Positions 731 to 55,250 of a DNA stretch of 55,424 nt are shown one piece after another (position 1 is the first letter of the stretch; every line of letters starts with the position of its first letter). The notes beneath the pieces were generated by a model. That model worked only from the letters and a program-made list of their open reading frames with translations. It was not told the origin of the DNA and made no database searches. The stretch comes from Terriglobales bacterium (GTDB lineage Bacteria > Acidobacteriota > Terriglobia > Terriglobales > Acidobacteriaceae), in assembly GCA_035624455.1 (NCBI GenBank), contig DASPRM010000081.1, forward strand, positions 1 to 55,424. Reading direction: 5' to 3'. The translations under genes and the position numbers were made by a program.

Positions 731-811
731 TGTTTTCCCTTCCCAGACCACTGCATAAATGTCCAAGAATTACTTTTGTTGGTTAGCCGCTGCGCCTGCA
801 TTACTCATGAG

Positions 812-940
812 GGGTGGAGCAGGCCTTCAGCCCTTTAGCCGTCGTTGAACATACTCTAGTGTCAGTCAAAGCACCTCAGGGGCTGAAGCCCTCATCCTTA
901 CACCTGCTTTCAATGCAGGCCTGAAGGCCTGCTCTACCCC
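812..940 (+). repeat. BIME-like palindromic repeat, left copy
   Basis: A ~129-base composite unit. It starts with GGGTGGAGCAGGCCTTCAG, passes through a variable part containing GTTGAACAT, then has the hairpin GGGGCTGAAGCCC and the conserved CTCATCCTT. It ends with the hairpin GCAGGCCTGAAGGCCTGC (915-932) and CTCTACCCC. Both hairpins share a TGAA loop. The same unit recurs in direct orientation at 1811-1938, and an inverted core copy lies at 1163-1226. These are taken as the REP elements served by the RAYT gene between them (inference from arrangement). Confidence 0.85.
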
Positions 941-985
941 GTCATGAGAGATGTGAACGGACGGGAGGTTTCAGAACTTCAGGCT

Positions 986-1115
986 GTCATCCTGGGCGAC
1001 GCGCCCGGAGTCCCCAGCAAACCGGCTTTTAGTTTGCTGAGGGTGAGCGTCGGTCTAATTCTTCCGACCTACGTCTTTCGCGGCTCGCGGGCGAGAAGTC
1101 GAAGGATCTTGCGTT
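986..1115. repeat. degenerate copy of the GTCATCCTGAG...AGTCGAAGGATCTT repeat
   Basis: The left end reads GTCATCCTGGGCGACGCG and the right end AGTCGAAGGATCTTGCG, as in the compact copies at 17130 and 31886. Here the two ends are separated by about 80 extra bases, so this is an expanded or interrupted copy. No convincing gene was seen between 672 and 1215; the stretch is made of these repeats. Confidence 0.5.
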
Positions 1116-1162
1116 TGCTCTTTTCTATCGGACGTAAAGGAGTGAGCGCTAACCGTGCGCGA

Positions 1163-1226
1163 GGGTGGAGCAGGCCTTCAGGCCTGCATCAGAAGAAGCT
1201 GTAAGGATGAGGGCTTCAGCCCCTGA
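1163..1226 (-). repeat. BIME-like repeat, inverted core copy overlapping the RAYT 3' end
   Basis: GGGTGGAGCAGGCCTTCAGG...CCTGC, a short spacer, then AAGGATGAGGGCTTCAGCCC. This is the reverse complement of the core found at 875-940 and 1876-1938. The palindrome near 1211-1222 contains the stop codon of the RAYT gene. Confidence 0.9.
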
Positions 1227-1722
1227 AGTATGAAACCTGCTCACCAGCCATTGGTCTGAGCCACTGCGGAACTGCGTCCAGAATATATTTCGGATTGGCC
1301 GAGCTATAGGGATAGTGTTGTGCGACTCCCACCAGTCTCCGCTGTACTGGGTTCTCGTGAATGTAGGTTCGGTATCTCTGAGATTCGACTGCATCTCGCA
1401 CCCGTCGATCGTGGAAGCTCGTCTGCCATTTCTCGCCTGTGAGCCCTAGCTCCTTGTTTGCGCGGAAGGAATAGCCCCCTTTGATGAACTGCATGGCGCG
1501 TTCGATAGTGACCCGGGAGCCAGGGGTGATCAGCAGGTGAAAATGGTCAGGCATTATTACAAATTCATGCAATAGGTACTTACTCTCTTCGCGATAGTGG
1601 TAGAGCACGTCAATGAGTAACAGTGCCGAGCGCTCGGACTGAAGCAGTTGCTGCTTGCAATAGGTGGATGCAGTCAGGAAGTAGGTTGACTCGCTGGTAT
1701 GACCGCGGAGGGGAATGATCAT
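1216..1722 (-). CDS. REP-associated tyrosine transposase (RAYT, Y1/HUH family)
   Basis: This 168-residue single-strand DNA transposase-like protein belongs to the Y1 (IS200/RAYT) superfamily. The diagnostic metal-binding HUH motif appears as MPDHFHLL around residue 58. The helix with the nucleophilic tyrosine is RYRTYIHENPVQRRLV around residue 118. IKGGYSFR is also typical of the family. RAYTs are domesticated, single-copy enzymes that cut and move REP palindromes and do not carry transposon ends of their own. Here the gene is bracketed by direct BIME-like copies at 812-940 and 1811-1938, with an inverted copy overlapping its 3' end, the usual RAYT arrangement. The stop codon (1216-1218) lies inside the palindrome, so the last residues Phe-Arg-Gly are repeat-encoded. 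The ATG at 1722 has no clear Shine-Dalgarno sequence. The gene is more AT-rich than its neighbours. Confidence 0.93.
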   Translation of the reverse strand: MIIPLRGHTSESTYFLTASTYCKQQLLQSERSALLLIDVLYHYREESKYLLHEFVIMPDHFHLLITPGSRVTIERAMQFIKGGYSFRANKELGLTGEKWQTSFHDRRVRDAVESQRYRTYIHENPVQRRLVGVAQHYPYSSANPKYILDAVPQWLRPMAGEQVSYFRG

Positions 1723-1810
1723 AGCACGATTCTTAGCACAATTTTGACGCTCGCGACATGAGACCCCAAATCCCTAAGCCTCCATTATTCATCAGCAGGT
1801 TCCGATTTGG

Positions 1811-1938
1811 GTGGAGCTGAGCCTCAGCCGGGCCTTCCGCCTTGTGGAACATTTTTGTGTATCAGGCAAAAGCAACTCAGGGGCTGAAGCCCTCATCCTT
1901 GTGGCTCTTCCAATGCAGGCCTGAAGGCCTGCTCCACC
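1811..1938 (+). repeat. BIME-like palindromic repeat, right copy
   Basis: A ~128-base unit in the same orientation as 812-940. It contains GGTGGAGCTGAGCCTCAGCC, GTGGAACAT, CTCAGGGGCTGAAGCCCTC with ATCCTT, then GCAGGCCTGAAGGCCTGC and CTCCACC. The core is almost identical to the left copy and the outer arm is degenerate. Confidence 0.85.
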
Positions 1939-2323: not shown

Positions 2324-5300
2324 ATGATGAAGTCAAATTCTAAGCACACCCGAAGCATGCTATTGGCTTTGCTGCTGAGCTTGGCGCTGTTTGCCCTCGA
2401 GGCAATGGCCCAGGTCGATACGGGTACGATCGCCGGCACGGTGAGCGACGCCTCTGGCGCAGTCATTCCCAATGCCACTGTAACTGCCAGAAATGTTGCT
2501 ACCAGTGCCGAGCGGACGGCGCAGACCAACACCCAGGGCGGGTACAACATCCCGGCGCTGCAGCCCGGCCAGTACGAGGTAACGGTCAAGGCGCCGAACT
2601 TCGCCCAGTACAACGCGCGCACTACGGTGACGGTGGGACAGCACGTCACCCTCGACGCCACCCTGGGTGTTTCGCATGCGGAAACTGTAGTAGAGGTGAT
2701 CGGCGAGGGCGGCACGCAGGTCAACACCCAGACCCAAGAACTGTCGCAGATCATCACGCCGCAGCAGGTGGCGCAACTGCCCAGCCTGACGCGCAATCCC
2801 TACGACTTTGTGGCTGTATCGGGCAATGTGAGCGGCGGTGACCGCACCGCTTCCGGCGGCGATCAGAACACGACTGGCCGCGGCGTCGGCTATGCCATTA
2901 ATGGTCAGCGCACTTCCGGCACCGAGATTCTGCTCGATGGCGTGGAGAACATCGATCTGTTCACCGCCACTGTCGGACAGCAGATTCCGGTTGACTCCGT
3001 GCAGGAATTCCGCGTCATCACCAGCAACTTCGATGCGCAGTATGGGCGCGCGTCGGGTGGCGTGGTTAACGTCAGCACGAAATCAGGCACCAACAACTTC
3101 CACGGGTCGGCATGGGAGTTCAACCGCCTCGCCGCCTACACGGCGAATACGTACGACAACTCGTCCAAGGACCTTCCCAAGGGCCAGTACACGCGCAACC
3201 AGTTCGGTTACGACATCGGCGGACCGATCATCAAGAACAAGCTGTTCATCTTCCAGAGCACGGAGTGGACGCGGGTGCGCAGCAACGCCAGCCTGAGCTC
3301 ATATGTCCCCACGCCGGAGTTGCTGGCGGCGCTGCCGCCTAACGTGCAGAACTTCTTTAGCACGTACGGCGCGAACACCTTCAACTTCGCCAGCACGCTC
3401 AACGCGGGACAGGTGGCGAGCGCCGTAGGCTCGACCGGCGCCTTCTCCGCGCTTCCGTCTTCCCTGCCGGCGCTGGGCCTGGTGAACTTCAGCGCACCGG
3501 CGGATGCGGGCGGCGGCGTTCCCACCAACACCTACCGCATCATTGGGCGCATCGATTTCAACCTGAGCGACAAGACTCAGATGTTCTTCCGCTACGCTCT
3601 GGAGAACATCGACAACTTCATCGGCGCGGACTTCGCCACTCCCTATCCGCAATACGACGTTGGCGACTCCTCCTACAACCAGAGCGGACTGTTCTCGATC
3701 AGTCACACGTTCAGCAACTCGTTGCTGGCAAATGTCAAGCTGAGCGCCAGCCGCGTGAACTTCGTGAACACCTACGACAAAGCGCAGCAGAATGTGCCGG
3801 AATTGCTGATCACCAGCGGGGCCAGCGTCAATGGAACGCCGGTACAGCTGCCAGGTTTGTTCGCGCAGTTCGCAGGAGCCGGCGGATTGCCCTTTGGCGG
3901 CCCGCAGAATGTTTTCCAGGTGGCGCCTACAGTCTCCTGGACCAAAGGAAGACACAACCTCATGTTTGGCGGTCTCTATGACTACCAGCAGATGAATCGT
4001 GCATTCGGAGCGTACGCCCAGGGCGTGGAGGAGCTCGGGTTGAGCAACGCGCAGGGCTTCGACAATCTGGCGCTGGGCAATCTGGCGCTGTTCCAGGCGG
4101 CGGTTTTCCCGGAAAACAAATTCCCCTGCGTGCGCGATCCCAACACCAACCAGCTGATCGCAACCCCGGATTGCACACTCACCTTGCCCACCACGTCGCC
4201 GAGTTTTTCGCGCTCCTATCGCTACAACGACTGGGCGATCTTCGCCCAGGATAGCTTCCGCATGACTCCGCGACTCACTCTCAATTACGGCCTGCGCTAC
4301 GAGCATTACGGAGTGCAGCACAACGTGGATCCCAATCTTGATTCCAACTTCTACTATGGCTCGGGCAGCGACGTATATGAGCAGGTCCGCAACGGCTCGG
4401 TGCAGACCGTGCCCAACAGTGGTGTAGGCGGATTGTGGAACCCACGCTGGGGTACGGTGGCGCCGCGCGTTGGCTTTGCCATGGACCTGTTTGGCGACGG
4501 CAAGACCAGTCTCCGTGGCGGATTCGGCATCAGCTACGAGCGTAACTTCGGCAACGTGACCTTCAACGTGATCCAGAACCCGCCGAACTACGCCAGCGTG
4601 CAACTAACGCCAGGCAACCTGGGTGCTCCCATTCCGGTGACCAATGACAACCTTGGCCCATTTGCCGGGTCCACCGGTTCGGTCCCGCTTTCTCCCTCCA
4701 GTCTGCGGCACGTGAACCAGGACATCCAGGTGGCACAGACGCAGTTCTGGAGCCTGGCCGTGGAACGGGAACTGGCGCCCCAGACCGTGTTCGCGGTGGA
4801 GTACTCCGGCGCACACGGCGTTCACTTGTACGATATCGCGGCATTCAACCAACTCTGCGGTGGGCAGGTTTATCTCGGAGACTCGTTTGCCAATGGCATC
4901 TGCACGCGTCCCAACCAGCAGTATTCGGGAATCAACACCCGTGGCAGCCTTGGTGGGTCGCGGTACAACGCTCTGAACCTGCGCTTCCAGAGCACTAACC
5001 TGCATCACACGGGGTTGAGCCTGGTGGCGAACTACACCTGGTCGCACTCGCTCGACGATCTGAGCTCAACCTTCTCAGACAGCACCGGCGGCGCATCGAA
5101 CGGTATCGGCAACCTCGGATATCTCGATCCGCGCAACCCCGGACTCGACTGGGGCAGCTCGGATTTCGACATCCGGCACCGTGTCTCGATCACGCCGATC
5201 TGGGAGACGCCGTGGTACAGGACGGGAAAGGGCTGGAAGCGCCAATTGCTGGGCGGCTACACCCTAGTGCCGGTGTTCTCGGCACGCTCGGGCACGCCGT

Positions 5301-5803
5301 TCTCCATTTATGACACCATCAACTCAATAAACGCCGGATCCGGCTTCGGCATTCCACGCTACACGCCAAACGGCGCGATCACCAGCTATTCCGTGAGTTC
5401 TTCACCCACGGCAACCGCGCCCAATCTTTTCACAGCTCTTACGCTGCCAAGTGGCGACCAGGCTCCTTTCGATCCGGTGCTGGGTGTCTCAGACTTCGGG
5501 CCGTTCCCGATCACTATGAGCCGCAGAAATGCTTTCCGCGGCCCGGGCGCATGGACGTTCGACCTTGCCGCAAGCAAGTCGTTTGCGCTCACCGAGCGCG
5601 TGAAGCTGGAGTTCCGGGCTGAGGGATTTGACATCCTCAACCACCACAACTTCTATGTCAACGCTTTGAACCTCGACGTGTTTAACTACGGCACCAACGC
5701 CATCACAGTGCCTGAACTGAAAGGCGGCCTCGGTGTAAACGCCATTGGCGGCAATCACGACGAGCGCCGCTTCGGTCAGTTCGCGCTGCGTGTGACCTTC
5801 TAG
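2324..5803 (+). CDS. TonB-dependent receptor, Oar-like, with carboxypeptidase-regulatory N-terminal domain
   Basis: A complete 1159-residue outer-membrane receptor. Residues 1-29 are a signal peptide (hydrophobic LLALLLSLALFAL, cleavage after AMA). Residues ~30-115 form a carboxypeptidase-regulatory-like beta-sandwich (GTIAGTVSDASGAVIPNATV). A plug-like domain follows (YAINGQRTSGTEILLDGVEN, then FRVITSNFDAQYGRASGG). The rest, from about residue 250, is the beta-barrel, ending in GQFALRVTF. This architecture is that of the Oar/CarboxypepD_reg receptors greatly expanded in Acidobacteriota, where they are assumed to import oligosaccharides or other large compounds; the substrate cannot be read from the sequence. 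Two consecutive ATG codons are possible starts (2324 or 2327), with GGAGAG upstream. A UUCG-loop terminator follows, so the gene is monocistronic. It is paralogous to the partial gene at 1-671. Confidence 0.93.
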   Translation: MMKSNSKHTRSMLLALLLSLALFALEAMAQVDTGTIAGTVSDASGAVIPNATVTARNVATSAERTAQTNTQGGYNIPALQPGQYEVTVKAPNFAQYNARTTVTVGQHVTLDATLGVSHAETVVEVIGEGGTQVNTQTQELSQIITPQQVAQLPSLTRNPYDFVAVSGNVSGGDRTASGGDQNTTGRGVGYAINGQRTSGTEILLDGVENIDLFTATVGQQIPVDSVQEFRVITSNFDAQYGRASGGVVNVSTKSGTNNFHGSAWEFNRLAAYTANTYDNSSKDLPKGQYTRNQFGYDIGGPIIKNKLFIFQSTEWTRVRSNASLSSYVPTPELLAALPPNVQNFFSTYGANTFNFASTLNAGQVASAVGSTGAFSALPSSLPALGLVNFSAPADAGGGVPTNTYRIIGRIDFNLSDKTQMFFRYALENIDNFIGADFATPYPQYDVGDSSYNQSGLFSISHTFSNSLLANVKLSASRVNFVNTYDKAQQNVPELLITSGASVNGTPVQLPGLFAQFAGAGGLPFGGPQNVFQVAPTVSWTKGRHNLMFGGLYDYQQMNRAFGAYAQGVEELGLSNAQGFDNLALGNLALFQAAVFPENKFPCVRDPNTNQLIATPDCTLTLPTTSPSFSRSYRYNDWAIFAQDSFRMTPRLTLNYGLRYEHYGVQHNVDPNLDSNFYYGSGSDVYEQVRNGSVQTVPNSGVGGLWNPRWGTVAPRVGFAMDLFGDGKTSLRGGFGISYERNFGNVTFNVIQNPPNYASVQLTPGNLGAPIPVTNDNLGPFAGSTGSVPLSPSSLRHVNQDIQVAQTQFWSLAVERELAPQTVFAVEYSGAHGVHLYDIAAFNQLCGGQVYLGDSFANGICTRPNQQYSGINTRGSLGGSRYNALNLRFQSTNLHHTGLSLVANYTWSHSLDDLSSTFSDSTGGASNGIGNLGYLDPRNPGLDWGSSDFDIRHRVSITPIWETPWYRTGKGWKRQLLGGYTLVPVFSARSGTPFSIYDTINSINAGSGFGIPRYTPNGAITSYSVSSSPTATAPNLFTALTLPSGDQAPFDPVLGVSDFGPFPITMSRRNAFRGPGAWTFDLAASKSFALTERVKLEFRAEGFDILNHHNFYVNALNLDVFNYGTNAITVPELKGGLGVNAIGGNHDERRFGQFALRVTF

Positions 5804-6979: not shown

Positions 6980-8290
6980 ATGCTGGGACTGGAGCGCAAG
7001 TCTGCCCCGATTGCTGCCGCTCTGCTAATCGCCTTTGTAGCAGTTCCGCGCCAGTTGTCTCCTCTGTCGCAATTTGCTCTGGCCCAAGAAAAAGAGACGC
7101 GTGAGGTCGCCGCTCTTCCCCCTCCGCCTCCTGCCGAAAGCCAGTTGCTCGGTGTGACCTCCAGTAAGTTCGACGAGCTTCGATTGCAGGCGCTCTCCGG
7201 CCGTGTCGAGGCGCAGTATCTGCTGGGGCTTGCTTATGACCGCGGCCGATTGGTCGCGCGCAATCTGGCCGAGGCGGTGCGGTGGTACCGGGCCGCGGCC
7301 GAGCAGGGATTCGCGAGTGCGCAGACCGCGCTCGGATACCTCTATCACCACGGGTTAGGCGTAGAGCGCAACGATGTTGAATCGGTCCGCTGGCTGCGGC
7401 AAGCGGCAGAACGGGGCGATCCTGCCGCGCAAAACAACCTCGGCTTTATGTATGCCGAGGGTCTGGGCATTGCCCGCGACGATAACGCAGGACTCTCCTG
7501 GTACCGGGCAGCAGGGGAGCAGGGCTATGCACCCGCGCTGACGAATCTCGGCCACATGTATGAGCACGGCAACGGAGTGAGTGTCGATTACAGCGCGGCA
7601 CTTCATTGGTACCGGCTCGCCGCGGAAAAGGGAGATGCTTCCGGGCAGAACAATCTGGCCCACCTCTATTCCGAGGGACACGGCATTGCACGCGACTATG
7701 GCGAAGCCGCGCGCTGGTACCGCGCGGCGGCTGAGCAGGACCTGCCGGCGGCGCAGTTCAACCTGGCTTATCTCTACGAACTGGGAAAAGGTGTTTCAAA
7801 AGATTTTGTTCAGGCATTCACCTGGTATCAGAAGTCGGCGGAACAGGGCTTCGAGATGGCCCAGAACAATCTGGGAACCTGCTACTTCTCGGGAAAAGGC
7901 GTGGAGCGCGATGATGCGCTGGCGGCAAAGTGGTATCGCGCAGCCGCCGATCGCGGGCTCGCGGCAGGCCAGGCGAACCTTGCCTTCCTATACCTCATGG
8001 GTGCAGGAGTAACGCGCAGCGAACGAGAGGCAGAGAAATGGTTCCTGCAATCAGCCGAGCAGGGCAATGTCGCCGCGCAGGCGAACCTGGGTCAGCTCTA
8101 TCGCGCCGGCCGCGGGGTCGGCCTCGACTATGTTCAGTCCTACATGTGGTACAGCCTGGCGGCAGCCGCGGGCAATCAGGATAGCGAGCGCTCGCGCAAA
8201 GAACTACAGCAGATAATGACCCCACATCAGGTTGAGGAAGCACAGCGAAGAATCACCACCTGGCTGACCGAGCACCCGACCCGCCACTAA
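6980..8290 (+). CDS. secreted Sel1-like repeat protein
   Basis: A 436-residue protein with an N-terminal hydrophobic segment (APIAAALLIAFVAV) that reads as a signal peptide or anchor, then a proline-rich linker (ALPPPPPAE). From about residue 74 it has nine consecutive 36-residue Sel1 repeats. Each follows the pattern A-Q-x-x-L-G-x-x-Y-x-x-G-x-G-V-x-x-D, then a W-Y/F-R-x-A-A-E-Q-G block. Sel1 arrays form alpha-alpha solenoids for protein-protein contacts. In bacteria they are often periplasmic scaffolds or regulators of envelope processes. The start is supported by GAGG six bases before ATG. Binding partner unknown. Confidence 0.88.
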   Translation: MLGLERKSAPIAAALLIAFVAVPRQLSPLSQFALAQEKETREVAALPPPPPAESQLLGVTSSKFDELRLQALSGRVEAQYLLGLAYDRGRLVARNLAEAVRWYRAAAEQGFASAQTALGYLYHHGLGVERNDVESVRWLRQAAERGDPAAQNNLGFMYAEGLGIARDDNAGLSWYRAAGEQGYAPALTNLGHMYEHGNGVSVDYSAALHWYRLAAEKGDASGQNNLAHLYSEGHGIARDYGEAARWYRAAAEQDLPAAQFNLAYLYELGKGVSKDFVQAFTWYQKSAEQGFEMAQNNLGTCYFSGKGVERDDALAAKWYRAAADRGLAAGQANLAFLYLMGAGVTRSEREAEKWFLQSAEQGNVAAQANLGQLYRAGRGVGLDYVQSYMWYSLAAAAGNQDSERSRKELQQIMTPHQVEEAQRRITTWLTEHPTRH

Positions 8291-55104: not shown

Positions 55105-55250
55105 TTGGGTGGAGCAGGCTTCAGCCCTGCTTGTGCGATGCATGATAACCCAGGCTTCAGCCGCTGAGGGAAGCTCGCTCTGTACTGAATCAGACCCTCA
55201 GAGGCTAAAGCTATGCGCGCCTTGATGCCCGCCTAAAGGCCTGCTCCACC
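55105..55250 (+). repeat. BIME-like repeat, distant copy
   Basis: GGGTGGAGCAGGCTTCAGCCC at the left, CCAGGCTTCAGCCGCTGAGG in the middle, then CCTCAGAGGCTAAAGC and CCGCCTAAAGGCCTGCTCCA followed by CCCG at the right. It has the same ends and hairpins as the copies around the RAYT gene, about 53 kb away, but is more diverged. It shows that this REP family is dispersed in the genome. Confidence 0.8.

Follow-up and report, generated by a model that had tools for sequence, protein, structure and literature searches.

Several systems that pair a gene for a REP-associated tyrosine transposase (RAYT) with hairpin-forming repetitive extragenic palindromes (REPs), or that resemble them, have been described, some of them in Acidobacteria. 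RAYT-like genes flanked by inverted repeats of a repeated kind were reported from Acidobacteria in 2013 as TIRYT/TIRtrons, after their terminal inverted repeats (TIRs), and the repeats of Koribacter versatilis ORF1552 were found to form a dispersed family (PMC3733652). The acidobacterial class 3 TnpAY1 of Solibacter, reported in 2018, has about 600 dispersed structures, a Y----Q motif and a CnGA foot (PMC6006769). The RepRanger study of 2025 lists REPs in three Acidobacteriota, e.g. 5,307 in Granulicella aggregans; RAYTs are unmentioned in its main text, and its definition of a REP seems wider than the one used here (PMC12306157). The locus described here lies in a stretch of 55,424 nucleotides (the window; contig DASPRM010000081.1 of assembly GCA_035624455.1, a Terriglobales bacterium), and consists of a RAYT gene set between inverted copies of a composite repeat. 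Each half-unit of this repeat carries an outer hairpin A, preceded on its 5' side by a short tag, and an inner hairpin B, and two half-units in inverted orientation make a dyad A-B--B'-A'. The acidobacterial RAYT/REP system is real and of a known kind; what was not met with in print is the variation of tags inside one clade, where their wealth is unusual and they covary with the protein. Very probably, the gene and its repeats form a RAYT/REP system within an acidobacterial lineage, with dyads like the REP doublets called REPINs, in which the tag and the residues that would contact it change in step.

The locus shares with the TIRYT/TIRtrons a RAYT-like gene, long inverted repeats able to overlap the gene ends and a repeated family (PMC3733652). 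However, most TIRs are treated in that account as unrelated to GTAG REPs, and its accessible text holds no tag-protein covariation, whereas here the outer hairpin is a tagged REP, the tag being GTRG in the lineage of the window. The TnpAREP groups 2 and 3, and subclasses 2.2 and 2.5, have in common with the window system the HUH-Y1 core, the Y---NP motif, the W94/Q95/R104 pattern of the Escherichia coli enzyme and a REP-flanked gene, and the D and R of the window protein at E. coli positions 100 and 101 occur in some 2.5/2.7 TnpAREP (PMC6006769, PMC8266576). The motif set DHFH / WQ / YIHENP of the window protein has no exact row in their published Table 1; in addition, most of the clade's tags lack GT[AG]G at the foot, and each half-unit has a second, inner hairpin. 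Similarly to REPINs, two inverted REPs can fold as a long hairpin, with tens of dispersed copies (PMC3116915, PMC6006769), but hairpin B is an extra element in each half and the units measure about 120-155 bp. Unlike the Solibacter class 3 system, the window system has Y---NP and a GTRG-type tag. The IS200/IS605 enzymes have the same fold, and their elements carry 5' guide sequences beside terminal hairpins (PMC8266576); the window protein differs from them in an IS200 score under the cut-off, a low gene copy number and many short units. Two expectations of an earlier note on this DNA proved wrong or overstated in these comparisons: the occurrence in an acidobacterium, put forward as a possible extension of what is known, had precedents in the reports of 2013 (PMC3733652) and 2018 (PMC6006769), and in place of a different REP architecture, the GTGG/GTAG tag, the stem and the TTCA loop of hairpin A resemble gammaproteobacterial REPs, e.g. 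that of Thioalkalivibrio, GTAGGTCGGCCTTCAGGCCGAC.

The RAYT gene and its flanking half-units

The gene, first noted as a Y1/HUH transposase, was confirmed as an open reading frame (ORF) on the minus strand that encodes 168 aa (Table 1). Its product scores 45.2 bits with Pfam Y1_Tnp and 98 bits, against a cut-off of 80, with the NCBIfam model REP_Tyr_transpos (NF047646, 'REP-associated tyrosine transposase'). Membership of IS200/IS605 was rejected, the IS200 model giving 26.5 bits, below its cut-off of 55. The sole sequence match in the PDB at E<=0.001 was 4er8, the E. coli complex entitled as a REP-associated tyrosine transposase bound to a REP hairpin. An AlphaFold model, built with 49 aligned RAYTs, has a mean predicted local distance difference test score of 91.3, and its top structural match is again 4er8 (Z 16.2, root-mean-square deviation 2.8, 140 residues aligned); structures of IS200/IS605 enzymes show the same fold with Z about 10-13. 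Among the 92 RAYTs compared below, the HUH residues H60 and H62 are conserved in 92/92 and 91/92, and the catalytic Y120, part of Y120-I-H-E-N-P (the Y---NP motif), in 91/92; the guide-region motif WQTSFHDRRVR occupies residues 99-109. By family and fold, the window ORF is a RAYT and is predicted to be an HUH-Y1 single-strand nuclease.

The genomic copies that were extracted follow one plan, a dyad A-B--linker--B'-A' of about 120-155 bp with its tags facing outward. Hairpin A consists of the tag GGTGGAG followed by GCAGGSC-TTYA-GSCCTGC; about 25 nt away follows hairpin B, SGGC-TTYA-GCCS and then CTGAGG, after which come the linker and the reverse complement of the same elements. The loop reads TTCA or TTTA on the tag-bearing strand. 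In the window's class the tag holds a canonical REP foot, GTGG or GTAG followed by A and the stem, in agreement with GT[AG]G placed at the foot of the hairpin or 1-2 nt from it. In an alignment of 18 half-units, 92.4% of the cells pair in the named structure, and at one pair per helix changes on both sides were found in 13 cells, against a shuffled mean of 7.0 (none of 500 shuffles as high). In DNA folding all eight full units tried formed a long-range hairpin, at -25.5 to -49.4 kcal/mol, compared with -16.4 to -29.1 kcal/mol with local pairs only; the long-range hairpin of one unit reached -49.4 against -28.9 kcal/mol, and the gain was small for the unit on contig C92 (-32.2 against -29.1 kcal/mol). 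The units of the window genome are therefore, like REPINs, two inverted REPs foldable as a single hairpin. Rfam returned two matches to the repeat, both sub-threshold, and no Rfam family was accepted as its identity.

Around the gene, three intact half-units score 76-81 bits with a model of the half-unit, compared with 21.6 and 15.9 bits for the degenerate arms. The RAYT gene lies between two of them in inverted orientation, one upstream and one at the 3' end, whose segments are complementary at 94% and 100%; the latter overlaps the ORF, and the TGA stop codon falls in the loop of hairpin B. The earlier note had seen the gene as bracketed by its own palindromes, and this part stood, as did most of the elements it listed: two composite units in direct orientation (812-940 and 1809-1938, 78% identical), an inverted core at the 3' end of the gene (1163-1229, 90% identical), two hairpins per unit with a TGAA loop (GCAGGCC-TGAA-GGCCTGC and GGGC-TGAA-GCCC) and a further copy about 53 kb away, which folds as one dyad. 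The anatomy had to be redrawn: the intact inverted partners are 1164-1229 and 1870-1938, the basic unit is the outward-tag dyad A-B--B'-A', and the left arms of 811-940 and 1809-1938 are degenerate.

Table 1. Position of the RAYT gene and of the repeat elements in the window
Feature	Position	Strand	Evidence
RAYT gene	1216..1722	-	family models, AlphaFold, 4er8
Half-unit A-B, tag GGTGGAG, hairpin A 1170-1187, hairpin B 1211-1222	1164..1229	+	76.3 bits
Half-unit A-B upstream of RAYT, inverted partner of 1164-1229	1870..1938	-	79.3 bits
Degenerate left arm of upstream unit 1809-1938	1809..1852	+	15.9 bits
Intact right half-unit of downstream unit 811-940, tag GGTAGAG	869..938	-	80.8 bits
Degenerate left arm of unit 811-940	811..885	+	21.6 bits; inverted repeat 811-834/917-940
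Further complete A-B--B'-A' unit, far contig end	55107..55251		half-units 55108-55174(+) 61.7 bits, 55191-55250(-) 49.9 bits

Dispersed copies and tag classes in the window genome and its relatives

A covariance model of the A+B half-unit, R2, was applied to the window genome; 150 of 1500 candidates were scored, so that the counts are lower bounds. At least 52 half-units were found at E<=1, and at least 41 at E<=0.01 under stricter filters. The exact tag pattern of the window's class, GTRGAGCNNNNCTTYAG (class V), occurs 16 times and its reversal not once; two motifs searched with up to 3 mismatches gave 5 matches (shuffled mean 0.08) and 3 matches (shuffled mean 0.04), and repeats arising by chance were rejected on these counts. 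In eight of nine pairs of neighbouring half-units within 250 nt the tags face outward, and only three of the 30 half-units with loci fall within an ORF that reaches 150 aa, whereas 1059 of 1260 points placed at random in these loci do.

The comparison was extended to 61 genomes, the window genome and 60 relatives, none of the latter listed as of the same genus. Matches to R2 (E<=0.01) were found in 40 and a RAYT (E<=1e-5) in 44; in a larger draw, a close RAYT (E<=1e-20) was present in 162 of 300 genomes of the family. Among the matches listed, 160 RAYT places were examined with a strict two-sided rule, by which at least 12 of the 15 letters of tag plus stem must agree between the hairpin upstream and the one downstream. 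Matched tag and stem were found on both flanks in 94 of them, the 66 that failed the rule being uncounted. Leaving out L102, whose hairpin had been read on the wrong strand, and L243, which is the place of L037, 92 RAYT rows remained. In many close RAYTs A-B immediately precedes the start codon, and B'-A' is found at the 3' end or overlapping it.

The 92 RAYTs fall into the tag classes GTRG (16), TGAARG (22), TATCAG (16), GGAAG (11), GTGGAAG (7), TAAG (6), GTCAG (5) and GTAGAAG (4), with 5 others. Fifteen of the 16 GTRG rows have GTGG exactly at loop-12 to -9; in the GTGGAAG and GTAGAAG classes GTRG is placed further out, and across the clade the canonical foot is often absent. The outer part of the tag varies, and its final two bases are AG in 63, GG in 25 and GA in 4, i.e. 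RG in 88 of 92. On a RAYT tree built without the loop and C-terminal columns, with few columns and many open forks, the tag class changes 21 times, compared with a shuffled mean of 61 (none of 200 shuffles that low); an earlier tree of 49 rows gave 13 changes against 24.6. It is thus supported that tag class and RAYT clade co-vary; the earlier note had proposed a test of this covariation as a check, along with genome-wide counts of copies, orientation and intergenic bias.

The dispersed copies follow the same classes. Exact V, T and F tag patterns were counted in all 61 genomes, the reversed patterns serving as control (T and F 0 everywhere, V at most 7). Copies of V had a median of 16 in genomes with a V-RAYT and 0 in those without (Mann-Whitney p 1e-4; family only, 7e-4); for T the medians were 30 and 0 (p 7e-6; 1e-4), and for F 18 and 0 (p 8e-6; 1e-4), with five RAYT-bearing genomes in each class. 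In this test G003, G009 and G032 (T) received their RAYT class by eye or by model match and G013 by the left tag only (G and L numbers label genomes and loci), and G025 and G051, the former with a RAYT remnant between T tags, were entered among the genomes that lack a T-RAYT. Within the three classes counted, the class of the dispersed copies is associated with the tag class of the RAYT.

Individual relatives illustrate these families. A search of named genome contigs with the window protein returned seven relatives, four of them close, the nearest being L036/L102 on JAHFUA010000041.1 of isolate nzgw69 (taken to be G003), with a RAYT 78% identical; G003 holds 45 exact V-class tags, the highest number of the 61 genomes. 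G031 has a close RAYT at 1.90 Mb with flanking inverted repeats, 108 exact T-class copies and, at L184 (G031:C1:3290312-3290626), a Y1 gene with GGGGACAG/CTGTCCCC on either side. At G025:C7:26001-26256 a RAYT fragment of 50 residues stands between two inverted TATCAGGGC tags and is likely a decaying element. By eye, the repeat encodes a C-terminal PQGLKP motif in many relatives; a loose pattern found it in 44 of 92 only, and it was therefore not used as an argument.

Covariation between the tag and the putative contact residues

For the E. coli enzyme, contacts with GTAG have been assigned to beta-1, the surroundings of beta-4 and the C-terminal end (PMC8266576), and the residues named for this interaction include W94, Q95, E100, H101 and R104 (PMC6006769). 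Their equivalents in the window protein are, by alignment, W99, Q100, D105, R106 and R109; residues 13-20 and 104-108 form strands in the AlphaFold model and are taken as beta-1 and beta-4. When 146 columns were ranked by mutual information with eight tag bases, window positions 104, 106, 105 and 109 came at ranks 3, 4, 12 and 15, and ranks 1, 2 and 5-10 were held by 32, 12, 11, 113, 96, 94, 14 and 151. A second ranking used pairs of RAYTs matched for identity outside the loop (3221 pairs, the tag differing in 2682; 87 rows, the five rows with unclassed tags left out), and here position 105 was first of the 146 columns, followed by 102, 14, 12, 104, 32 and 106. Covarying columns are thus concentrated in the known contact regions, beta-1 and around beta-4.

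Most classes have a residue set of their own. At E. coli positions 100-101-104, D-H-R was found in 21/22 TGAARG, 6/6 TAAG and 10/11 GGAAG rows; D100 accompanies GTRG in 16/16 and N100 GTGGAAG in 6/7, and all four GTAGAAG rows have K or L100 with E or M104. TATCAG, in full GTATCAG, goes with E100 in 15/16 rows and GTGTCAG with D100 in 4/4; three of these four are nested among TATCAG rows, and one of the GTGTCAG rows, L293 (D), groups with L310 (TATCAG, E) with support 96/79. At 13 nt before the loop the tag has A in 21 rows, and D or N at position 100 occurs in none of these; 71 rows have G or T there, 65 of them with D or N, five with E and one with H (Fisher 1e-15, ancestry ignored). It is an evenly poised question whether these residues form a natural recognition code, in which positions 12, 14, 32, 102, 104-106 and 109 would set the accepted tag, position 105 (E. 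coli 100) would read one tag purine, A with E/K/L and G with D/N, the RG bases would keep a guide role, and tag and enzyme would have switched jointly many times.

Proposed mechanism and alternative explanations

In the mechanism we propose, the RAYT would recognise hairpin A plus the tag 5' of it and would cut a single strand at a guide-selected site. The A-B--B'-A' unit, which resembles a REPIN doublet but has hairpin B as an additional inner element in either half, would be copied or moved to intergenic sites, with transposition proceeding via single strands. The RAYT gene, lying between two half-units, occupies the position that the short linker has in the dyads, and in one genome, G026, a gene-bearing element of this sort appears to have been copied as a unit starting at a tag. 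Within the clade, the tag has changed many times in its outer part, and the residues of beta-1 and around beta-4 that would touch it have changed alongside; the covariation may be causal, hairpin B may have a role of its own and the RG bases may act as the guide.

Several observations weigh against this proposal. Repeats abundant without a RAYT, which the earlier note had named as speaking against its idea, were found in part: G034 and G051 hold 83 and 79 exact T-class copies and G033 has 27 model matches, all without a close RAYT, and a search at E<=0.001 detected a Y1 gene in neither G033 nor G034. There are 13 V copies in G021 and 71 model matches in G005, and the 12 Y1 loci of these two genomes show no V/T/F tag and no R2 match. 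Tags flank one of the five Y1 loci of G051, the sole Y1 gene between T tags there being IS200-like. In the window genome no F-RAYT was found for its 10 copies of a second tag class, TTGAARGGGC (class F, e.g. C103:59127-59146), and the copy number of its own repeat, as counted and thus a lower bound, is modest compared with the more than 100 per genome given as usual for REPs (PMC2817692). On the side of the protein, columns outside the contact regions rank high, 96, 94, 151 and 154 by mutual information and 157, 73 and 154, next after the top seven, in the identity-matched ranking, where 109 drops to 21st. The key tag base is G despite E100 in L139, L263, L113, L289 and L123 and despite H100 in L271, L248 has G100 with TATCAG, and no signal was obtained for TATCAG against a small hydrophobic residue at position 101 (0.6/2 pairs). 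Supported independent pairs (n=5) went the same way in 3.9 cases and the opposite way in 0 (p 0.125), in a strict test that is underpowered; because such strictly independent phylogenetic pairs are few, the residue code is a strong lead, not proven.

The orphan repeats would be explicable by loss of the RAYT, by mobilisation via another Y1 enzyme or by acquisition from elsewhere. Altogether 24 Y1 loci of G051, G021, G005, G000 and G031 were inspected for tags, and R2, run on 20 of them, gave 0 matches. The IS200-like gene of G051, L175 (G051:C70:307-639), has a YIRNQQQHH motif, stands between two inverted TATCAGGGC tags and scores 58.3 bits with the IS200 model (cut-off 55) and 20.3 with the RAYT model (cut-off 80); possibly the same repeat is used by another Y1 enzyme, or the insertion is a matter of chance.

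That gene also bears on the alternative that deserves the most attention, namely that the whole is an IS200/IS605-like transposon, whose gene-bearing unit moves whole and whose dyads of 120-155 bp are internally deleted, non-autonomous derivatives (miniature inverted-repeat transposable elements). The linker position of the gene between half-units in many relatives would fit it, and so would a pair of RAYT copies in G026, 2.3 kb apart, that share a block 82% identical. The left end is TTGTATCAGGGC in both, at the tag, with unlike sequence directly outside; the right end is GCCCTGATACAAAC, and since it sits inside an array of several T units this boundary is less clear. About 1.4 kb separates the blocks, which in this one case speaks for the copying of a unit bounded by a tag rather than for a simple tandem duplication. 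However, RAYTs are few per genome, and small units number in the tens in many genomes; by score the window protein is a RAYT and not an IS200 enzyme, and a single pair more than 85% identical within one genome (L131/L131b) was found in the 92 rows. We regard the transposon as possible but doubtful.

A second alternative holds that each subclade inherited its tags and its loop residues jointly and that the two do not interact, so that the covariation reflects shared ancestry alone. Tags do cluster strongly on the RAYT tree, the strict independent pairs fall short of 0.05 and some top-ranked columns lie outside the contact regions. Yet all columns share the ancestry, and 102, 104-106, 12 and 14 nevertheless stand out in identity-matched pairs, in the parts described as contacting GTAG, beta-1 and around beta-4 (PMC8266576); moreover, the association recurs in separate subclades, GTAGAAG going with K/L in 3/3 independent pairs. 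Ancestry alone seems a rather unlikely account.

Unlikely, too, and somewhat more so, is the view that the repeats are hairpins owned by the host, such as terminators or stabilisers of mRNA, with the RAYT as a domesticated protein serving them. In 27/30 cases the core of the half-unit is not within an ORF reaching 150 aa, and orphan repeat families persist without a close RAYT, as this view would have it; but selfish elements likewise survive in intergenic locations, and the tag class of the dispersed copies follows that of the RAYT across genomes in the three classes counted. A merely accidental linkage, in which common acidobacterial REP-like hairpins happen to lie next to the gene, can be set aside as extremely improbable, given the matched tag and stem on both sides of 94/160 RAYTs, the R2 matches in only 2/14 genomes of the sister family f2, and ten distant RAYT/Y1 loci (L002, L003, L040, L041, L125-L130) searched with R2, of which only L126 matched, weakly (<=18 bits).

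Other features of the window and its genome

The RAYT locus of the window sits between two paralogous genes, 141-671 and 2324-5803, which we take to be of the large TonB-receptor-like type; the former, an ORF of 176 aa, matches the latter's C-terminal part with 64% identity. At about 7297-7910 similar segments stand in tandem and, by eye, encode Sel1-like repeats.

Three other Y1 loci of the window genome have neither a V/T/F tag nor an R2 match. The genome holds two distant RAYT-like genes with 31-32% identity, L002 (G000:C160:30521-30919) and L003 (G000:C71:126-563), for which model R2 finds no A-B repeat. Near each of them lies one GGGGWSAS motif, a motif named for TIRYTs (PMC3733652), and a scan of seven RAYT/Y1 loci other than the window's was positive in 4/7.

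Significance

Discrimination between self and other REPs by RAYTs has been tested in vitro with three enzyme/REP pairs, in which the tag mattered to different degrees, and co-evolution of TnpAREP and REP was concluded from three such pairs in 2021 (PMC8266576). In the open-licence literature without supplements, no paper on tag-residue covariation in Acidobacteria was recognised from titles and the starts of abstracts. The window's system and its relatives offer at least seven tag classes in one clade, most of them tied to a residue set of their own and, for the three classes counted, also to a dispersed repeat family of their own. Closely related enzymes are set apart by a single tag base and a single contact residue, and the question of recognition is therefore directly testable. 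Taken together, the clade is a natural data set for how RAYT-type enzymes recognise DNA, and it links the acidobacterial TIR family of 2013 to REPs proper; if tags and enzymes have indeed switched together many times, the specificity of these enzymes could be rewritten by few substitutions.

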